Below, piece after piece: positions 5,808-27,426 of a stretch of DNA of 64,000 bases. The notes under the pieces were generated by a model. That model was not told the DNA's origin. It was given only the letters and a program-made list of their open reading frames with translations, and searched no databases. Made by a program: the position numbers and the translations under genes. The number at the start of each line of letters is the position of its first letter. Positions within the stretch are counted from its first letter, which is position 1. The stretch lies in NCBI RefSeq assembly GCF_000745235.1, contig NZ_JQNL01000001.1, positions 1,922,001 through 1,986,000 of the forward strand, read 5' to 3'. The stretch comes from Luteibacter mycovicinus (GTDB lineage: Bacteria > Pseudomonadota > Gammaproteobacteria > Xanthomonadales > Rhodanobacteraceae).

Positions 5808-5823
5808 AGCAAGAGACGGGCCA
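5808..5823 (-). promoter_or_regulatory. Sigma-54 (-24/-12) promoter of the first ABC permease pair
   Basis: The minus strand reads TGGCCCG-TCTC-TTGCT. This matches the consensus TGGCACG-N4-TTGCW at both invariant dinucleotides (GG at -24, GC at -12) with correct spacing, and differs from it at one base. The predicted start point falls about 25 nt before the permease ATG at 5769. Confidence 0.65.
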
Positions 5824-5890
5824 AACCCACAAAAGGACGCTAACTCGCGCTGGCTCAGCGAGTTACGGCACCGCGTGACACGCCGGCCCG

Positions 5891-5940
5891 GTGTCCGCGG
5901 ACAGTGTCCGTGTCCGCGACCGTGTCCGCCACCGTGTCCG
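5891..5940 (-). promoter_or_regulatory. GTGTCCG repeat array, putative enhancer-binding-protein site
   Basis: Five GTGTCCG units start at 5891, 5904, 5910, 5922 and 5934; the last three are 12 bp apart. The promoter-proximal unit is part of the perfect palindrome TGTCCGCGGACA (5892-5903), 68 bp upstream of the sigma-54 promoter at 5808-5823. The same palindrome and layout recur at 12175-12215. The rest of 5770-6010 holds no gene. Confidence 0.6.
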
Positions 5941-6010
5941 ACCGGGCTGACGGTCACGTGCCCTATCCGTGCCGGTGCTTTCCCCGATGGGATCGGCCGC
6001 GCGCTGGCGA

Positions 6011-6907
6011 TCAGCCTGCCCTGACCGTCAGCAGGTCCTCGATGCCCGCGCGCCAGAACAACTCGCGACGCATGCGGTCCGCGACGCCACTGACGATTTC
6101 CGCACCGTCCTGCGACGGATCGACATGCACCCGGAACGGCCGCTTGCCGAAGGGCAGCCCGACCACCTCGACGATCTTCGTTGCCACCTCACCCGCGTCG
6201 GCGTCGGCCGGTTCGAGCGCAGCCAACCCCTTCAGGATCGTGTCCGGCATCCCCTTGTACGGACCATCCATGTAGGCGGCCGCCCGCGGCTCATCGGAGG
6301 GCTTGCCCGCATGGGCGAAGTGGTTGGTACCTCTGGTGAAGGCGCCAGGCACCATGATCGAAGTCTCGATACCGAAGCGGGTCAGCTCGCCGGCATAGCT
6401 GACGGCGAGCGAGTCCATGGCGGCTTTCGCGGCGAAGTACGGAGCGAGAAACGGCGGCGTGCCACCGCGCGTGCTGCTCGATGAGACCCAGAGCAGCAGG
6501 CCCCTGCCCTGCGCACGCATCACCGGTAACGCGGCGCGGTTCACCCTTTGCGTGCCGAGGACATTGACGTCGTAGAGCTGGGCGTACTGCTCCGCCGTAA
6601 AGGCTTCAGCGGGACCGAACACCATATGACCCGCGTTGTGCACGAGGACGTCCAGAAGGCCATCGCGATCCACGATGGTTTTCACGGCCGCCTCTGCGGA
6701 TGCCTCGGAGGTGACATCGAGCTCGACGACGCGAAGATCGACCTGCCGTTCAGCCGCTTCTTTCAGGACCGCTTCGGCGTTGGCGGCATTGCGACCCGCG
6801 ACATCGCGCATGCTGGCATAGACCGTGTGTCCCGCCGCCGCGAGTGCGCGCGCCGTCAGCAGGCCGAACCCGCTGGATGCCCCGGTAATGAGGATGATCT
6901 GCTTCAT
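6011..6907 (-). CDS. SDR-family NAD(P)-dependent oxidoreductase
   Basis: A 298-residue short-chain dehydrogenase. The Rossmann nucleotide-binding motif is at the very start (ITGASSGFGLLTARAL), the NAG motif follows near residue 90 (HNAGHMVFGP), and the catalytic Ser and Y-x3-K are in VSSSSTRGG and APYFAAKAAMDS. ATG 6907 puts the dinucleotide fold at residue 5 and is 1 nt from the stop of the upstream SDR gene, indicating translational coupling. Longer in-frame starts overlap that gene. Substrate unknown; a GFG rather than GIG in the glycine motif is common in this oxidoreductase subgroup. Confidence 0.87.
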   Translation of the reverse strand: MKQIILITGASSGFGLLTARALAAAGHTVYASMRDVAGRNAANAEAVLKEAAERQVDLRVVELDVTSEASAEAAVKTIVDRDGLLDVLVHNAGHMVFGPAEAFTAEQYAQLYDVNVLGTQRVNRAALPVMRAQGRGLLLWVSSSSTRGGTPPFLAPYFAAKAAMDSLAVSYAGELTRFGIETSIMVPGAFTRGTNHFAHAGKPSDEPRAAAYMDGPYKGMPDTILKGLAALEPADADAGEVATKIVEVVGLPFGKRPFRVHVDPSQDGAEIVSGVADRMRRELFWRAGIEDLLTVRAG

Positions 6908-6908
6908 G

Positions 6909-7649
6909 TCAGACCACCCCGCCGTTGGCGCGCAGCACCTGACCGTTGATCCAGCCGCCGTCCGGCCCCGCGAGGAATGCCACGGCAGCGGCGATGTCGT
7001 CCGGCGTGCCCAGGCGCTCCAGCGGTGACAGCTTGGCCAGTCGGTCGACCAGCTCGGGCGACTTGCCGTCGAGGAACAGGTCGGTGCCGGTCGGGCCGGG
7101 GGCGATCGCATTCACCGTGATATGGCGGCCACGCAGTTCGCGCGCCAGCACCATCGTGGTGGCTTCGATGGCCGCCTTGGTCGCGGCGTAGGCGGCATAG
7201 CCCGGCTGCAACAGGGCAACCACGCTGGAAGAGAAATTGACGATGCGGCCGCCTTCGCGAAGGCGCGTCGCCGCTTCGCGCATGGTGTTGTAGCTGCCTT
7301 TGACGTTGATCGCGAAGAGGCGATCGAAGTCCTCGTCCTTCAACTCGGCCACCGGGGCCAGCGCCATCACGCCCGCGTTGTTCACCAGGACATCCACGCC
7401 GCCGTAAACCTCCTCGGCCTTGTCGAACAGGCGACGCACATCCGCGGCGTTCGCGACATCCGCCTGCGCACTGATCGCCTGGCCACCGGCCGTTTCGATC
7501 TCCCGGACGACCGCCTCGGCCGCCTGCGCGCTACCCGAATAGTTCACGAGGACGGTAAAGCCGTCGCTGGCGAGCCGTTTGGCAACCGCGGCACCGATGC
7601 CGCGCGAGGCACCCGTCACGATGGCGATCCTGCTGTTTTTCACGTTCAT
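6909..7649 (-). CDS. SDR-family oxidoreductase, 3-ketoacyl-ACP reductase-like
   Basis: A 246-residue classical SDR: TGASRGIGAAVAKRLA near residue 10, NNAGVMA near 88, catalytic Ser in FSSSVV and Y-x3-K in AYAATKAAIE. It ends GGWINGQVLRANGGVV, the typical C-terminal signature of FabG-like enzymes. ATG 7649 was chosen because it directly precedes the Rossmann fold. First gene of a two-SDR operon that is divergent from a LysR regulator, so its expression is probably LysR-controlled. The substrate cannot be told from sequence. Confidence 0.87.
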   Translation of the reverse strand: MNVKNSRIAIVTGASRGIGAAVAKRLASDGFTVLVNYSGSAQAAEAVVREIETAGGQAISAQADVANAADVRRLFDKAEEVYGGVDVLVNNAGVMALAPVAELKDEDFDRLFAINVKGSYNTMREAATRLREGGRIVNFSSSVVALLQPGYAAYAATKAAIEATTMVLARELRGRHITVNAIAPGPTGTDLFLDGKSPELVDRLAKLSPLERLGTPDDIAAAVAFLAGPDGGWINGQVLRANGGVV

Positions 7650-7748
7650 ATCGGTTCTCCGGTACCGGCGCGATTGCCGGGCGAGACCATGATGGGCGTT
7701 GGCTGCCCGCGGATAATCCACCTATATTGGGCTTCACTATTCCTTGCA

Positions 7749-8681
7749 ATGGAACAAAAGATGGCCCTGGACCGTTTCGATACCATGCGATTGTTCGTCC
7801 GCATCGTGGAACGGAGAAGCTTCACGCTCGCCGCGACGGACCTCGACCTGCCGCGGTCGACGGTTACGCAGGCGATCAAGCGTCTCGAGGCCAGACTCGG
7901 CGTCCGCCTGCTCCAGCGAACCACCCGACATGTCAGTCCGACGCTGGATGGGGAGGCTTACCATCGCCGCTGCGTATCGATCCTCGCCGACGTGGAGGAT
8001 GCGGAGGCGGCCTTCGTGGACGCTCGCCCGGCCGGTCTATTGCGCGTGGACGTACACGGCACCCTCGCCCGCCACTTCGTCCTTCCGTCGCTGCCGGAGT
8101 TCCTGGCCCGTTATCCCGCACTGAAGATCCACGTGGGCGAAGGCGACCGGTGGGTGGATCTCGTTCGCGAAGGGGTGGACTGCGTTTTACGTGTCGGCGA
8201 TCTGAGCGACAGCACGATGGTGGGACGCCGCATCGCCTGGCTGGACGAGGTGACGTGCGCCAGCCCCGGATATCTCGAAAGACACGGTGGCATGCCCTCG
8301 TCTCCGGACGATCTCGCCGGGCATGAGGCCATCGGCTTCCTGTCGACGTCGACGGGAGCAACGCTGCCCCTGGAATTCGTCGTCGGCGACGACGTGCGGC
8401 ACGTCACCTTGCCATCGACGGTCACGGTGACGGGCGCGGAGACGAATCTGACACTCGCGCGGCTGGGGCTGGGCCTGATTCAGGTGCCGAGATACCACGT
8501 GGCCGCTGACCTCGCGGCCGGCACGCTCGTCGAAGTACTGAAAGCGTTTCCGCCGACACCGTCGCCGGTATCTCTGCTCTACCCGCACAACCGGCAGCTG
8601 TCGCCGCGGGTGCGCGTGTTCATCGACTGGCTGGCGGTGACCTTCGCCCGGCACGCGGGCGAAGGGGTGAGACCGATCTGA
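7749..8681 (+). CDS. LysR-family transcriptional regulator
   Basis: A 310-residue LysR protein. The winged helix-turn-helix spans about residues 10-70 (RSFTLAATDLDLPRSTVTQAIKRL followed by LGVRLLQRTTR) and the periplasmic-binding-like effector domain follows. It belongs to the group often found divergent from oxidoreductases, as here with the two-SDR operon 99 bp away. ATG 7749 (MEQKMALDRF) and ATG 7761 (MALDRF) are both possible. A TATATT element at about 7731 may be its -10. The likely role is autoregulation and inducer-dependent control of the SDR genes. Confidence 0.87.
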   Translation: MEQKMALDRFDTMRLFVRIVERRSFTLAATDLDLPRSTVTQAIKRLEARLGVRLLQRTTRHVSPTLDGEAYHRRCVSILADVEDAEAAFVDARPAGLLRVDVHGTLARHFVLPSLPEFLARYPALKIHVGEGDRWVDLVREGVDCVLRVGDLSDSTMVGRRIAWLDEVTCASPGYLERHGGMPSSPDDLAGHEAIGFLSTSTGATLPLEFVVGDDVRHVTLPSTVTVTGAETNLTLARLGLGLIQVPRYHVAADLAAGTLVEVLKAFPPTPSPVSLLYPHNRQLSPRVRVFIDWLAVTFARHAGEGVRPI

Positions 8682-8688
8682 GCCAGGC

Positions 8689-9105
8689 TCAGTTCTTCAG
8701 CGGGACGGTTTCGAACCCAGCCTGCGGCGCCGTGTTGTTGTTCTGCGGCGGAGGCGGCGGCGGGTTGTTGGCACGGCCCGGACCGGCACCGCGAGGCCCA
8801 CACGAATACGCGCCCCACTCCTGCGAACCACCGTTCGGATCGCCGAGCGGCTTGACGGTATCCGCGCCCATCTTCGCGGCTTCGTTGCGTGCGAGCACTT
8901 CGAGTTCGTCGCGGACCTTCAGGTCGTTGCGATCGATGGGGCCGACACGACTCTGTACGGAGACGGTGACCTTGCCCTGATCGCGGCAGCTGGACACGTC
9001 GCCGTTCCAGGCGGTGCGGACATTGCGCGCGCTGTCATCGAGCTTGATGCCCCACGTGCAGGCCGAAAGGGCGAGCGGGATGAGGAGGACAAGGGCCTTG
9101 CGCAT
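8689..9105 (-). CDS. DUF4156-like lipoprotein
   Basis: A 138-residue outer-membrane-type lipoprotein. The signal peptide MRKALVLLIPLALSAC ends in a clear lipobox (L-S-A-C, Cys16). The body matches the small DUF4156-like lipoprotein pattern (KVTVSVQ, DELEVLARNEAAKMGADTV) and the tail is a low-complexity Pro/Asn/Gly stretch (PPPPPPQNNN). It is a single gene, convergent with the LysR gene and downstream of the M16 peptidase gene on the same strand (87-bp gap). Function is not established for the family. Confidence 0.75.
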   Translation of the reverse strand: MRKALVLLIPLALSACTWGIKLDDSARNVRTAWNGDVSSCRDQGKVTVSVQSRVGPIDRNDLKVRDELEVLARNEAAKMGADTVKPLGDPNGGSQEWGAYSCGPRGAGPGRANNPPPPPPQNNNTAPQAGFETVPLKN

Positions 9106-9192
9106 GGTAGAGCTCCGGAAGATCGTTCGATGGGTATGCTAGCCGGATGGAAGCGAGGGCGCGATCTTCTTCGATCGCGCCCTCGCGCCCGG

Positions 9193-12087
9193 TCACTTTT
9201 TCGAGGGGGCCGGTTTGGACCTGGCCGCCCTGGCAGGCACGGTGTCCTTCGCGGGCGCGCCATCGGCATCGATCACGTGCACTTCGCCGAGGTTCAGCGC
9301 ACGCACCGGGGCCTCGATCTTGCGCAGATCGCCGACGATCACCCAGGTCAGCGCGTCCGGATGGATCACGGCTGACAAGGCGTCTTCGGCGTCCTTGCGG
9401 TCGACGCCTTCGATACGCGACTTCAGCGTCTGCACGTAGTCGTCCGGACGGTCGTAAATCAGGATGCCCGTGATCGCCCCCAGAACGGCCGAGGTGGTCT
9501 CGAAGCTACCGGGCAGCGCACGAACACGCTGCGCGCGGATCTTATCGATTTCCTCGTCGGTCAGCGGCTTCGGTCCGATAACGGCCTTTGCCTCCTTGAG
9601 GATTTCCGCAGCGGACTCGGCGGTCTTATCGGTCTGCACCGGCGCGTAGAACAACAGCGGGCGCTGACCCTGAGCGTCGGAAAGCATGCTGCCCGCACCA
9701 TAAGCCCAACGCTTCTCCTCACGCAGGTTCATGTTGAGGCGCGAGGTGAACGTGCCACCGAAGGCACCATTGGCGATGCCGAGGTCGAGCGCGTTCTTCG
9801 CCTTGGTCGACGGCGCCAGCAGACCCGCCAGGATCAGCGACTGTGGGGCGTCGGTCCGGTTGATCAGGAAGACGCGCGGCCTGGGCTGCGCGGCGACTTC
9901 GCCGATGTTCTTCTTCGGCAGCGCGGTGGACGGCGCCTGCCAGTCGCCAAAGACAGCATCGAGTTTTGGCAGGATGTCGGCAAGCGTCGTGTCGCCGGCG
10001 ACGACGATGCGCACGTTGTCGGGGCGCAGGTAGTCGCGCTGGAATGCGGCGAGATCATCGGCGGTGAGCGAAGCGATGGCCTTTTCGGTGCCGCTACCGG
10101 TGAACGGAATACCGTACGCGTGATCCTTGCCGTAAAGCAGCGGCGGCAGGGTGCGCAGTGCGAGTCCGGTCGGCTCGGTTTTCTCCTGCGCGATGCCCGC
10201 GATCCACTGGCCGCGCACGCGCTCGATGTCATCCGCCTTGAACGCCGGATTGCGCGTGATGTCGGCGAACAGCGCCAGCGACGGCGTGAGGTCGGTGTTC
10301 AGCGCGTTGAGGCCGACGCTGCAGTTATCGAGCGAGCAGCTGGACGACACGATGGCGCCGAGACGCTCCTTGCGGCGCGCGACCTCCACGGAATCGAGCG
10401 ACTTCGTGCTCTCTTCCAGCAGGGCGGAGGTGAAGCTCGCCGTGCCCAGCTTACGGCCCTGATCCGCCGCGTAGCCGGCATTGAACAGAAGCTGCACCTG
10501 AGTGACCGGCACCGTGTGGCGCTCGGCAAGCACGACTTCGATGCCGTTCTTCAGCTTGCCGCGCTGCAGCTTCGGGAAGGACAGGTCGGGGAACGTGTCG
10601 ACGGCGGGTACACCCGTGCTGCGGTCCACCTCGGACTTGCCGACGGTATACGTCTTCGCGGGGGGAGTGACGGCGGCCGGACGACCTTGCGCGTCGCCGA
10701 GACCCACCACGGCCTTGTCTTCGGCCGCGGGATCGAAACCCGGCGCGGCAGGCAGCACGGTCAGCGTGTAGTCGCCCTTGGCCAGCCAGGTTTTCGACGC
10801 CGCCAGCACGGAGGCCGTCGTGGCTTTCTGCGCGCGCTCGAGATCCTTCTTATAGGCTTCGGGATCATTTCGGTAGACCTGGCCCTCGGCAAGGATGACC
10901 GCCTTGCCACCGAAACCGCCGACCTTTTCAAGACCGCGCACGAAGCCGGCACGATTGGCGACCTTGGCGCGGAGCAGTTCGTCGTCGGTCGGCCCCTTGG
11001 CCAGGTAGTCCTTCCAGACGTCGGCGACCGCCGCTTCGACCTTCGCCGGGTCGACGCCGTTTTTCACGTCGACCGTAAGCTGCACCTGACTGGCCAGGGC
11101 GAAAGGCGAAATACCCAGGCTCACGTCGTCCGCGATCTTGTCCTGGTAGACGAGGCGCTGGTACAGCCGTGAGGTCTTGCCGCCACCGAGCACGGTCGTG
11201 GCAAGGTCGAGCTGCACGGCGTCGTCGGTGCCCAGCTGCGGCACGATCCACGTACGCACGATGCGCGTCTGCGCGACCTGGTCATGCTGGGTGCCCCGGG
11301 AGGATGTCTGCACCGGGGTGATCCACGCCTGCTGGCGAGGAACCGGCGGACCCGCCGGGATGTCACCGAAGTACTTCTCGGCCTTGGCCTTCGCCTGTGC
11401 CACCGTGATGTCGCCGGCGAGCACGAGGGTGGTGTTGGACGCGCCGTAGTAGTCGTGGAACCACTGCTTGACGTCGGCGAGCGAGGCCGCGTCGAGGTCG
11501 GCCATCGAGCCGATGGTGTCGTGGTGATACGGATGATTGGCCGGGAACGTGTTGACCAGGACGTTTTCGTCGACGCGGCCGTAGGGGCGGTTTTCGCCCT
11601 GGCGCTTTTCGTTCTGGACGACACCGCGCTGGGTATCCAGCTCCTTCTGGCCGATGGCGCCGAGCAGATGGCCCATGCGATCGGATTCCATCCACAGCGC
11701 CATGTCGACGGCGGTGGTCGGGACGGTCTCGAAATAGTTGGTGCGATCGAACCAGGTGGTGCCGTTCATGTCCGTGGCGCCGGCACGTTCGAAGGGCTGG
11801 AAGTAGGTGCCCTTACGGTTTTCCGACCCAGAGAACATCAGGTGTTCGAAGAGGTGCGCGAAGCCGGTCTTACCGGCCGGTTCGTCTGCCGAGCCCACGT
11901 GGTACCAGATGCTGACCGCGACGACGGGCGCCTTGTGGTCCTCATGCACGACCACTGTCAGCCCGTTGGGCAGCTGGAAACGGGTGTAGGGAATGTCGGG
12001 AATCGCATCGGGAGAGGTGGTGGCCGCGGCGGCGGCCCCGACGAAGGAGATCAGCCCGGCGGCGAGCAGGGCGAGGCGGTTCTTCAT
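9193..12087 (-). CDS. M16 (pitrilysin/insulinase) family zinc metalloprotease, two-domain
   Basis: A 964-residue protein with an N-terminal signal peptide (RLALLAAGLISFVGAAAAA) and two M16 repeats. The first repeat carries the inverted zinc motif HLFEH (about residue 85) and the downstream glutamate region; the second, beginning near residue 520 (VLAERHTVPVTQVQLLFNAG), lacks HxxEH and is the usual inactive partner. It probably degrades peptides in the periplasm. The C-terminus is Lys/Pro/Ala rich. Two-domain periplasmic peptidases of this length are common in Xanthomonadales. Its promoter region is shared with the divergent sigma-54-controlled microprotein genes. Confidence 0.9.
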   Translation of the reverse strand: MKNRLALLAAGLISFVGAAAAATTSPDAIPDIPYTRFQLPNGLTVVVHEDHKAPVVAVSIWYHVGSADEPAGKTGFAHLFEHLMFSGSENRKGTYFQPFERAGATDMNGTTWFDRTNYFETVPTTAVDMALWMESDRMGHLLGAIGQKELDTQRGVVQNEKRQGENRPYGRVDENVLVNTFPANHPYHHDTIGSMADLDAASLADVKQWFHDYYGASNTTLVLAGDITVAQAKAKAEKYFGDIPAGPPVPRQQAWITPVQTSSRGTQHDQVAQTRIVRTWIVPQLGTDDAVQLDLATTVLGGGKTSRLYQRLVYQDKIADDVSLGISPFALASQVQLTVDVKNGVDPAKVEAAVADVWKDYLAKGPTDDELLRAKVANRAGFVRGLEKVGGFGGKAVILAEGQVYRNDPEAYKKDLERAQKATTASVLAASKTWLAKGDYTLTVLPAAPGFDPAAEDKAVVGLGDAQGRPAAVTPPAKTYTVGKSEVDRSTGVPAVDTFPDLSFPKLQRGKLKNGIEVVLAERHTVPVTQVQLLFNAGYAADQGRKLGTASFTSALLEESTKSLDSVEVARRKERLGAIVSSSCSLDNCSVGLNALNTDLTPSLALFADITRNPAFKADDIERVRGQWIAGIAQEKTEPTGLALRTLPPLLYGKDHAYGIPFTGSGTEKAIASLTADDLAAFQRDYLRPDNVRIVVAGDTTLADILPKLDAVFGDWQAPSTALPKKNIGEVAAQPRPRVFLINRTDAPQSLILAGLLAPSTKAKNALDLGIANGAFGGTFTSRLNMNLREEKRWAYGAGSMLSDAQGQRPLLFYAPVQTDKTAESAAEILKEAKAVIGPKPLTDEEIDKIRAQRVRALPGSFETTSAVLGAITGILIYDRPDDYVQTLKSRIEGVDRKDAEDALSAVIHPDALTWVIVGDLRKIEAPVRALNLGEVHVIDADGAPAKDTVPARAARSKPAPSKK

Positions 12088-12174
12088 GCACGGCTCCAGT
12101 GGGCCTTCATGGCCCGGGTCCCGTGGAGGCTAGCCCGCGATGTCGTCCGGACGCAATCGGGCATGTCGGAGTGT

Positions 12175-12215
12175 GCGGACGGTGTCCGCTCGCACACGGT
12201 CAGTGTCCGCGGACA
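12175..12215 (+). promoter_or_regulatory. GTGTCCG/palindrome site, putative enhancer-binding-protein site
   Basis: Contains the perfect palindrome TGTCCGCGGACA (12204-12215), identical to that at 5892-5903. A further inverted pair, GCGGAC/GTCCGC (12175-12189), lies upstream and includes another GTGTCCG. The palindrome ends 65 bp before the sigma-54 promoter at 12281, almost the same spacing as at the ABC permease promoter. Confidence 0.6.
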
Positions 12216-12280
12216 GGCATCCGTTTCGGAACGACCTGACAAACCTCATGCGAATCAGCTGATTGCGCGCCCTTAAAGAC

Positions 12281-12296
12281 TGGCACGGCGTTTGCG
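12281..12296 (+). promoter_or_regulatory. Sigma-54 (-24/-12) promoter of the microprotein pair
   Basis: Reads TGGCACG-GCGT-TTGCG, a full match to the -24 box and a match to TTGC at -12 with correct 4-nt spacing. The predicted start point near 12308 would give a leader of about 46 nt before the ATG at 12354. This is the best sigma-54 promoter I found in the window. Confidence 0.7.
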
Positions 12297-25941: not shown

Positions 25942-27258
25942 TCACTGCGACTTGAGTTGCCAGGTGGGTTGCACCAGCGCTGCCCGGAACGTCGGATACA
26001 GACCGGCCACCAGCGTCGATCCTAGCGCGAGGCCAAGAGTGAGCAGCAGCAAGCTTGGGTCGATACGTGCTAGCTGTGCGATGTCCACGGGCAACAGCCA
26101 GTGAACGCACGCGACACCGACGCCGGTGAGCGCGATGCCAAGCACCCCGCCGGCGAGGCCGATCATCCCCGCCTCGGTGAGAAACTGGGCGTAGATCGCA
26201 TGGCGAGGCGCACCCAGCGCTCTGCGAACACCGATTTCACCGCTACGCCTGAGGAACCTGGCCAAAAGAAGTCCTGACGTATTGACAAGACAGACCACGA
26301 GCAAGCCAAGTGCCACCAGCAGTGACGCGCCCGTGTCCGCAGGCACCACATGCCGCGCATCCAACCACGCCGGGATGTCACGCAAGCGATTATTCGGCTC
26401 CCAGGTGACGGCGCCCGAATCGCGCAGCTGCCGTGCATACCCGTCGAGGTAAGCCATGTAGGCGGCGACGGAGCGCTCATCGTCCAGTTGCACCAGGTAC
26501 GAAATCCAGACGCAATTCGAACGCGTCAGGCCCGCGATTCCCGACTCGGTGGGAGTTTTGCTGCAGCCAGTGTTGCCTGTAGTTTCGATGCCAGCCGCTA
26601 TCGCCGTATTGAACGGGAGAAACGCGTCTTCGCGAGTTGTCGTGAAGCCACCCGTATTGACCACATCGAAGAAGCGCGGCTGCGGATCCCAGTGACCGAC
26701 AACGCCGACGATTCGGTAGCTCCTTCCAGCCACCAGCAGGCTTTGACCTACGCTATTACGCCCCTGAAACAGCTTCCCGTTGAGCCGTTGGCTGATAACG
26801 ATAACATTTGCACGCCGTTCATCGTCCTGAAGTGTCCAACCCGCCCCGTACAGGAAAGGCACATCGAGCATGGGAAAGAACTCGCTGCCCACGGCATGGC
26901 CGTCGATATTGACAGGGTGACTCGCCGCAGCCTCGGCTTGCACAGCGGGCGAAATCTTATACATCGGTGCTTGCGCGGTACCTCGATGCGCGCGGGTAAG
27001 CGCAACGGCGGTAGCGTAGTCGAGAGAGGACCGAGGCTCGCCATCCTTGTCACGCTCTGTCGGGCCCCAGGTATCGACCTGCGGGACGAAAATCCGCCCC
27101 GATTTCCACGGCATGGGATCGCCCGATACAGCCCGGTAAACAGAGAAGGTCGTCATCGAAGCGGCGACGCCAAAGGCTATGGCTAGCACCATCAATGCCG
27201 TCAGACCCGGGCTTCGCCGGAAACTCAAGAGTGCCAATTCAGTGTAGTAAGAGAACAA
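25942..27258 (-). CDS. ABC transporter permease, MacB/FtsX type (first of second pair)
   Basis: A 438-residue permease, near-identical in length to its paralogue at 4450-5769 (439). TTG 27258 is chosen as start: it gives LFSYYTELALLSFRRSPG, aligning with MFGYYVELAVRSLRRNP of the paralogue, and AGGAG lies about 8 nt upstream. An ATG at 27294 is in frame but would add 12 residues absent from the paralogue. The FtsX coupling stretch is FLRRSGEIGVRRALGAPR. Unlike the first pair, no sigma-54 promoter is visible upstream. Confidence 0.82.
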   Translation of the reverse strand: MFSYYTELALLSFRRSPGLTALMVLAIAFGVAASMTTFSVYRAVSGDPMPWKSGRIFVPQVDTWGPTERDKDGEPRSSLDYATAVALTRAHRGTAQAPMYKISPAVQAEAAASHPVNIDGHAVGSEFFPMLDVPFLYGAGWTLQDDERRANVIVISQRLNGKLFQGRNSVGQSLLVAGRSYRIVGVVGHWDPQPRFFDVVNTGGFTTTREDAFLPFNTAIAAGIETTGNTGCSKTPTESGIAGLTRSNCVWISYLVQLDDERSVAAYMAYLDGYARQLRDSGAVTWEPNNRLRDIPAWLDARHVVPADTGASLLVALGLLVVCLVNTSGLLLARFLRRSGEIGVRRALGAPRHAIYAQFLTEAGMIGLAGGVLGIALTGVGVACVHWLLPVDIAQLARIDPSLLLLTLGLALGSTLVAGLYPTFRAALVQPTWQLKSQ

Positions 27259-27426
27259 AGTGTCCGTCTCCTGGTTCCATCCACAGCACCGCACAGCATC
27301 TTCCAGACCGGTGCAGGCGACTCGCGTTGATTCAGTTGTCGAGGTAACGCGAGCTTAGCGAGCAACTAAAACACGCGCCCGCGTCATCAGCATCCGACAT
27401 TCCGCGACGTAGCTATAAAAGCTCGT

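Follow-up and report, generated by a model that had tools for sequence, protein, structure and literature searches.

Introduction

Transcription from sigma-54 promoters follows a familiar plan, in which NtrC-type regulators bind upstream sites and activate the sigma-54 polymerase by looping, often with the help of IHF. Likewise familiar are the Bce-type detoxification modules, in which a kinase with a short extracytoplasmic loop is encoded beside FtsX-type permeases and the regulator is of the OmpR type. The system described here resembles these modules in its FtsX-type permeases encoded together and, judging from hydropathy, in its short kinase loop, but it differs from them in its sigma-54 activator and in the addition of an adaptor and, probably, TolC. 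With DarBCD and MacAB-TolC it has in common an adaptor, a MacB/FtsX permease and an ATPase; here, however, the permeases are split into two proteins and duplicated, and control is predicted to be exerted by a sigma-54 two-component system. The resemblance to ADOP (TIGR03434) lies in the two FtsX/MacB halves and in the orphan pairs without an ATPase of their own, whereas the halves are separate proteins here and their scores of 155-192 bits against a cut-off of 622 place them outside that family.

On the regulatory side, the system to compare is GlrR/QseF of enterobacteria, for which excerpts of PMC8745638 give the site TGTCN10GACA and IHF sites at glmY. Both systems have a response regulator with AAA+ domain and Fis HTH, a paired kinase and TGTC/GACA half-sites, as well as an autoregulated operon (predicted here), which in the Proteus case has IHF sites according to the same excerpts (PMC8745638). 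The half-sites of GlrR/QseF are, however, 10 bp apart, whereas they abut in the palindrome TGTCCGCGGACA studied here, and the GlrR/QseF target is a small RNA, in contrast to the ABC exporter and microproteins predicted here. With 287 bits against a cut-off of 763 and its abutting palindrome halves our candidate regulator falls outside GlrR, and it reaches none of the NCBIfam cut-offs for named regulators, GlrR included. In the open-access literature we found no description of this regulon and nothing related under the palindrome string, and the excerpts of the sigma-54 survey PMC3162934 are silent on ABC transporters, efflux and TolC. We rate the system as a sigma-54 two-component regulon of a known type with unusual gene content.

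Results

The window, that is, the whole stretch of 64,000 nucleotides that was analysed, corresponds to bases 1922001-1986000 of a genome that consists of one contig of 4,625,266 bases. The original prediction had placed one copy of the palindrome before an ABC permease pair and another before two microprotein genes; both positions were reproduced, and so were the claimed gaps between the palindromes and their -24 elements (Table 1, in which -24/-12 elements are scored as matches out of 11 consensus positions). The minus and plus orientations that had been assigned to the two copies are meaningless, because TGTCCGCGGACA is self-complementary. The prediction also held that GTGTCCG half-sites lie further upstream and that the genes start 40-60 bp beyond the promoters. 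We indeed found four CGGACA half-sites on the promoter strand upstream of the first palindrome and one TGTCCG upstream of the second, and by their coordinates the permease ATG (5769) and the ATG of microprotein 1 (12354) lie 39 bp and 58 bp past the -12, respectively. Both sites carry -24/-12 elements with the conserved GG and GC of sigma-54 promoters, and the combination of palindrome and half-sites, with its restricted spacing and family-wide conservation, has the features to be expected of an upstream activator site. Elsewhere in the window, a 10/11 match to the -24/-12 consensus (TGGCACTTGGCTTGC, 26301-26315, minus strand) lies inside an ORF (25942-27294) and is probably due to chance.

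Table 1. Features of the two window promoters, their genes and the regulator operon. Positions are those of the window unless a locus is given.
Feature	Position	Strand	Remarks
MacB/FtsX-type permease 2, 404 aa	3224..4438	-	second half of ADOP model, below cut-off
MacB/FtsX-type permease 1, 439 aa	4450..5769	-	first half of ADOP model, below cut-off
-24/-12 element TGGCCCGTCTCTTGC	5809..5823	-	10/11 consensus matches
Predicted enhancer palindrome TGTCCGCGGACA	5892..5903	.	68 bp upstream of permease promoter
Four extra half-sites GTGTCCG	5904..5940	read on plus strand	starts 5904, 5910, 5922, 5934
Half-site GTGTCCG	12182..12188	+	
Predicted enhancer palindrome TGTCCGCGGACA	12204..12215	.	65 bp upstream of microprotein promoter
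IHF consensus match WATCARNNNNTTR	12253..12265	+	28 bp before -24 element
-24/-12 element TGGCACGGCGTTTGC	12281..12295	+	11/11 consensus matches
Microprotein 1, 27 aa	12354..12437	+	one hydrophobic stretch; at 16/19 genus loci read
Microprotein 2, 64 aa	12469..12663	+	one hydrophobic stretch; at 19/19 genus loci read
Regulator operon			order: adaptor (423 aa), ATPase, permeases (435+404 aa), permeases (437+405 aa), response regulator (449 aa), histidine kinase
Response regulator gene	L058:3342-4691		

The likeness of the two promoters could in principle be coincidental or stem from a repeated DNA segment rather than from a common regulator, and the palindrome by itself is indeed not enriched in the window (10 copies with at most two mismatches against 5.98 expected, a count reached by 9 of 100 shuffles). 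Alone, the promoter elements are mostly noise as well, given that matches with at most one mismatch number 124 genome-wide and 189 in the reversed control. It is the pairing of the two that stands out. The 4.63-Mb chromosome holds three exact copies of TGTCCGCGGACA, the third of them outside the window at 1069974, and all three are coupled to a -24/-12 element of at least 10/11, at 56, 65 or 68 bp. The chance of such a neighbour is 0.0011 per palindrome and about 1e-9 for three out of three, as a simple density estimate from the 124 elements that ignores base composition near promoters. Many palindromes unrelated to sigma-54 promoters, which the prediction had named as grounds for giving it up, are thus not what the genome holds. 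Among the 23 one-mismatch palindromes genome-wide, only that at 906776 has an element of at least 9/11 within 115 bp; a further one, at 2209462, lies before tolC (L237, 2209370 region), 121 bp from the 9/11 element TGGCATATCGCTTGC, with the ATG 37 bp further. Since the palindrome is missing from six of the eight perfect -24/-12 elements (at one of these a lone half-site stands at -163), the pairing is specific, and the idea that the palindrome is a general feature of sigma-54 promoters can be set aside. A degenerate scan for CGGACA upstream of a loose element returned 10 places, two of them already-known sites, with one per strand in the reversed control; a scan for doubled half-sites returned two, one being the promoter of the regulator operon described below. 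Across the family, 159 of 233 genomes, drawn from 21 of 26 genera, carry the strict module pattern (palindrome-N46-76-TGGCNNGNNNNTTGC), and its reversed control is absent from all 233. Moreover, the linkers between palindrome and promoter differ in sequence while the spacing stays. Together with the coupling in the genome, the reversed control and the differing linkers refute coincidence or repetition as the source of the likeness, to which we leave next to no probability.

For an overview of what these sites drive, 104 distinct sites were fetched, a selection that includes 19 picked as genus orthologues of the microproteins. Scripted assignment gave 52 microproteins, 21 adaptor operons, 14 permeases, 2 tolC, 3 pcm and 12 other targets; at the three pcm sites tolC follows pcm, and on inspection three of the others were reassigned (L107 to permease, L161 to the adaptor locus, L215 to microprotein). 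In this selection, four classes of downstream target account for 95 of the 104 sites: the adaptor operon, permease pairs, tolC (with or without pcm in between) and microproteins of 27-73 aa with a single TM. Among the remaining sites are those before DUF4440-like proteins (L116, L121), S33-type hydrolases (L122, L199) and S10-like proteins (L187, L193), calls for which Pfam was run on one of each pair, as well as one with a target without Pfam match (L200) and one with no clear target (L186). The gap between palindrome and promoter is 64-69 bp at 94 of the 104 sites and 53-58 bp at the other 10, in a search that allowed 46-76 bp; the family-wide listing also holds one gap of 63 bp (G092). The two groups differ by roughly one turn of the helix, which fits activators that work by looping. 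Linker matches to the IHF consensus were found at 27 of the 104 sites, against 0.36 in shuffles, and at a fixed place, 28-30 bp before the -24. All 27 belong to microprotein promoters and 19 of them come from the genus of the window.

The prediction had advised looking for a Fis-family AAA+ regulator near other copies of the palindrome, and one was found at the third copy. This palindrome reads into a co-directional operon with gaps of at most about 60 bp, situated about 860 kb from the window promoters, in which permease genes and an adaptor are followed by a response regulator and its kinase (Table 1). The regulator has the domains of the NtrC type (receiver PF00072, AAA+ PF00158 and Fis HTH PF02954), all above cut-off. 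Its GAFTGA loop reads GAYTGA, as it does in 13 of 15 orthologues, the other two having GAFTGA; Y can stand in for F in this motif. All 15 orthologues read share the recognition segment SRQALYRR. In the kinase we find HAMP and HATPase domains and, by hydropathy, two hydrophobic stretches about 30 residues apart. There is a single rpoN in the genome (one PF04552 match, 226.8 bits). Encoded with its kinase in the very operon that the third palindrome starts, the regulator is the obvious candidate for a common activator, and the operon is predicted to be autoregulated. On the strength of operon position and conservation, we consider it very probable that this regulator binds TGTCCGCGGACA.

The genome encodes seven strong sigma-54 activators, besides five weaker PF00158 matches that are probably other AAA proteins, and this number invites the thought that the sites are real sigma-54 promoters served by another enhancer-binding protein. 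The nearest paralogue (2112.5-2113.9 kb) is 38.6% identical and has a similar recognition segment, SRQSLYRR, and some 1.3 kb ahead of yet another activator gene there is a palindrome with one mismatch (502299), near which elements reach at most 6/11. Against this, none of the other six strong activators has an exact palindrome near it, and in the relatives read it is the adaptor operon of the L058 regulator that has the palindrome in front of it. The paralogue was rejected as the regulator, in view of the two or three 9/11 elements of its module having no TGTCC half-sites upstream. Overall, we regard a different activator as improbable. The module of the paralogue (L064, G000:C1:2111306-2117041) comprises an ATPase, an 800-aa permease, a sigma-54 response regulator and a kinase.

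Beyond the genome, a regulator orthologue (E <= 1e-120) is found in 210 of the 233 family genomes. Combining the counts by hand, we find the module in 134 of the 143 genomes whose orthologue is close (E <= 1e-215), in 18 of 67 with a weaker match and in 7 of 23 with none. To some extent this co-occurrence follows from the method, since the module matches include the promoter of the regulator operon itself. Order-wide, the strict module occurs in 106 of 398 genomes; the family contributes 103 (of 125 genomes) and the rest of the order 3 (of 273). The strict pattern understates the true distribution: G173, G099 and G015 have an exact palindrome with elements outside the pattern, and G205 has a one-mismatch palindrome. 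In a second family (f2), probably Xanthomonadaceae, three of the four genomes read have the exact palindrome and one has it with one mismatch; the TGGCAC elements that go with them stand 52-55 bp away and are altered at the -12. In four genera (g4, g5, g21 and g24), 38 genomes encode the regulator and there is no strict module match; the four loci read there (L157, L156, L154 and L152, respectively) show 3-5 TGTCC half-sites without palindrome. In these genera the site architecture thus appears to have drifted, while the recognition segment has not. At L153, palindrome and element are both present, and at the loci of families f3, f4 and f10 the number of TGTCC half-sites is 1, 0 and 0, respectively. 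At L082, in a genome without the regulator (G017), palindrome and promoter stand before a transposase-like ORF that ends in a stretch similar to the tail of this system's histidine kinase; apparently, this is the remnant of a lost operon.

As to the targets, the operon at the third palindrome unites the genes of a probable exporter, namely an adaptor, an ATPase and a MacB/FtsX permease. The adaptor matches RND_mfp above cut-off and also matches the DarC and MacA models, and the best model of the ATPase, below its cut-off, is that of the darobactin exporter DarD. None of the curated cut-offs for MacB, MacA, DarC, DarD or DarB is reached, which makes these proteins relatives rather than named members. 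The second of the operon's two permease pairs shares 46% and 43% identity with window permeases 1 and 2, respectively. In another genome (G120), permease orthologues that are 77% and 70% identical stand behind the same site, with a 15-base -24/-12 element identical to TGGCCCGTCTCTTGC (L192). We found no ABC ATPase among the 10 flanking ORFs of the window permeases that were scanned, nine of which have a Pfam match (they include MarR, a glyoxalase, two short-chain dehydrogenases and LysR), so the window permeases probably use the ATPase of the regulator operon. With tolC as probably the fifth member of the regulon, it seems likely from the gene content that the targets form one tripartite exporter with a shared ATPase and TolC.

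The same regulon could instead serve a machine like LolCDE or FtsEX for the maintenance of lipoproteins or the cell wall, with the microproteins taking part in envelope grooming. The ATPase scores well against the LolD and FtsE models and the permeases weakly match LolC/E and FtsX; in relatives, moreover, exported hydrolases (S10, S33 type, DUF4440) are the targets of certain sites, and genes of the NlpC/P60 type or with a beta-lactamase fold follow the microproteins. We nonetheless deem such a maintenance function unlikely, since an RND_mfp adaptor, a DarD-like ATPase and a tolC-class protein point to tripartite export.

The microproteins have no match in Pfam or NCBIfam. The two encoded in the window resemble each other as well as a third one, at 906.7 kb behind the weaker site 906776. 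At 18 of the 19 genus loci, all of which were chosen for carrying the site, a SpoU/TrmL-type methylase gene follows. The pN/pS values of 0.50 and 0.52 point to modest purifying selection. Among 18 aligned microproteins, M1, E4 and L8 are invariant and C19 and M26 nearly so, and of 3874 candidates, 612 match a profile of these 18 at E <= 0.01. Where the 120 matches listed have names, most read 'hypothetical protein'; the pyrophosphatase label of two is in our view a misannotation. Named relatives among the matches listed belong to Luteibacter, Dyella, Frateuria, Fulvimonas, Rhodanobacter and similar genera. A search of plasmids for the microprotein gave no match.

Discussion

The original prediction was that one regulator encoded elsewhere acts on both window promoters through sigma-54, and the comparative evidence, together with the discovery of a fitting regulator, lends it support. 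We put at roughly 0.8 the probability that the two promoters belong to one sigma-54 regulon under the two-component system encoded about 860 kb away. The evidence from the DNA consists of the shared palindrome, the -24/-12 elements, the restricted spacing, the conserved classes of targets and the sigma-54 response regulator encoded behind the third copy. The regulon is probably larger than first proposed, adding the adaptor-ABC operon, the third microprotein and probably tolC.

From these parts a working model can be drawn. The membrane histidine kinase may sense an insult to the envelope, possibly a peptide, and would then phosphorylate the regulator. Assembled some 85-100 bp ahead of the presumed start, on palindrome and TGTCC half-sites, the regulator would loop to the RNA polymerase-sigma-54 and open the promoter, with IHF bending the DNA at many microprotein promoters. 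In this way its own operon, with adaptor, ATPase, permeases, regulator and kinase, would be amplified. Orphan permease pairs without ATPase, TolC and single-TM microproteins would be made at the same time, and could assemble into a tripartite exporter with interchangeable permeases. That the inducer is an envelope-active compound, perhaps a peptide, has in our estimate an even chance of being right.

The weakest step in this model is the last one, in which the microproteins might tune the permeases or the kinase. That they are accessory membrane subunits or modulators of the kinase is a tentative proposal, to which we give somewhat better than one chance in three. Still more speculative, and rather unlikely as a whole, is a wider view in which they are a new family of small membrane subunits in one modular machine for export and sensing. 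The regulon might then let alternative orphan permease pairs dock on a shared ATPase, adaptor and TolC, and the microproteins might choose the pair or report the status of the pump to the kinase.

What began as two unannotated promoters is now a regulon that can be put to the test: it has a candidate regulator, its site spans 12 bp, and five target units are predicted in the one genome. Its conservation extends through one bacterial family and, to judge by the four genomes read, into a second. It offers a possible reason why orphan permease pairs work, namely that the ATPase is made along with them. The microprotein family, 'hypothetical' in the named records among the matches listed, gains its first context. 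Knowing the inducer and the compound that is exported would tell us what these soil bacteria secrete or protect themselves from.

A minor observation concerns proteins of a different kind. At several loci (L116, L122, L187, L129 and L138), the sites drive, or the microproteins precede, exported hydrolases or domain proteins (DUF4440, S33, S10, beta-lactamase fold and NlpC/P60).
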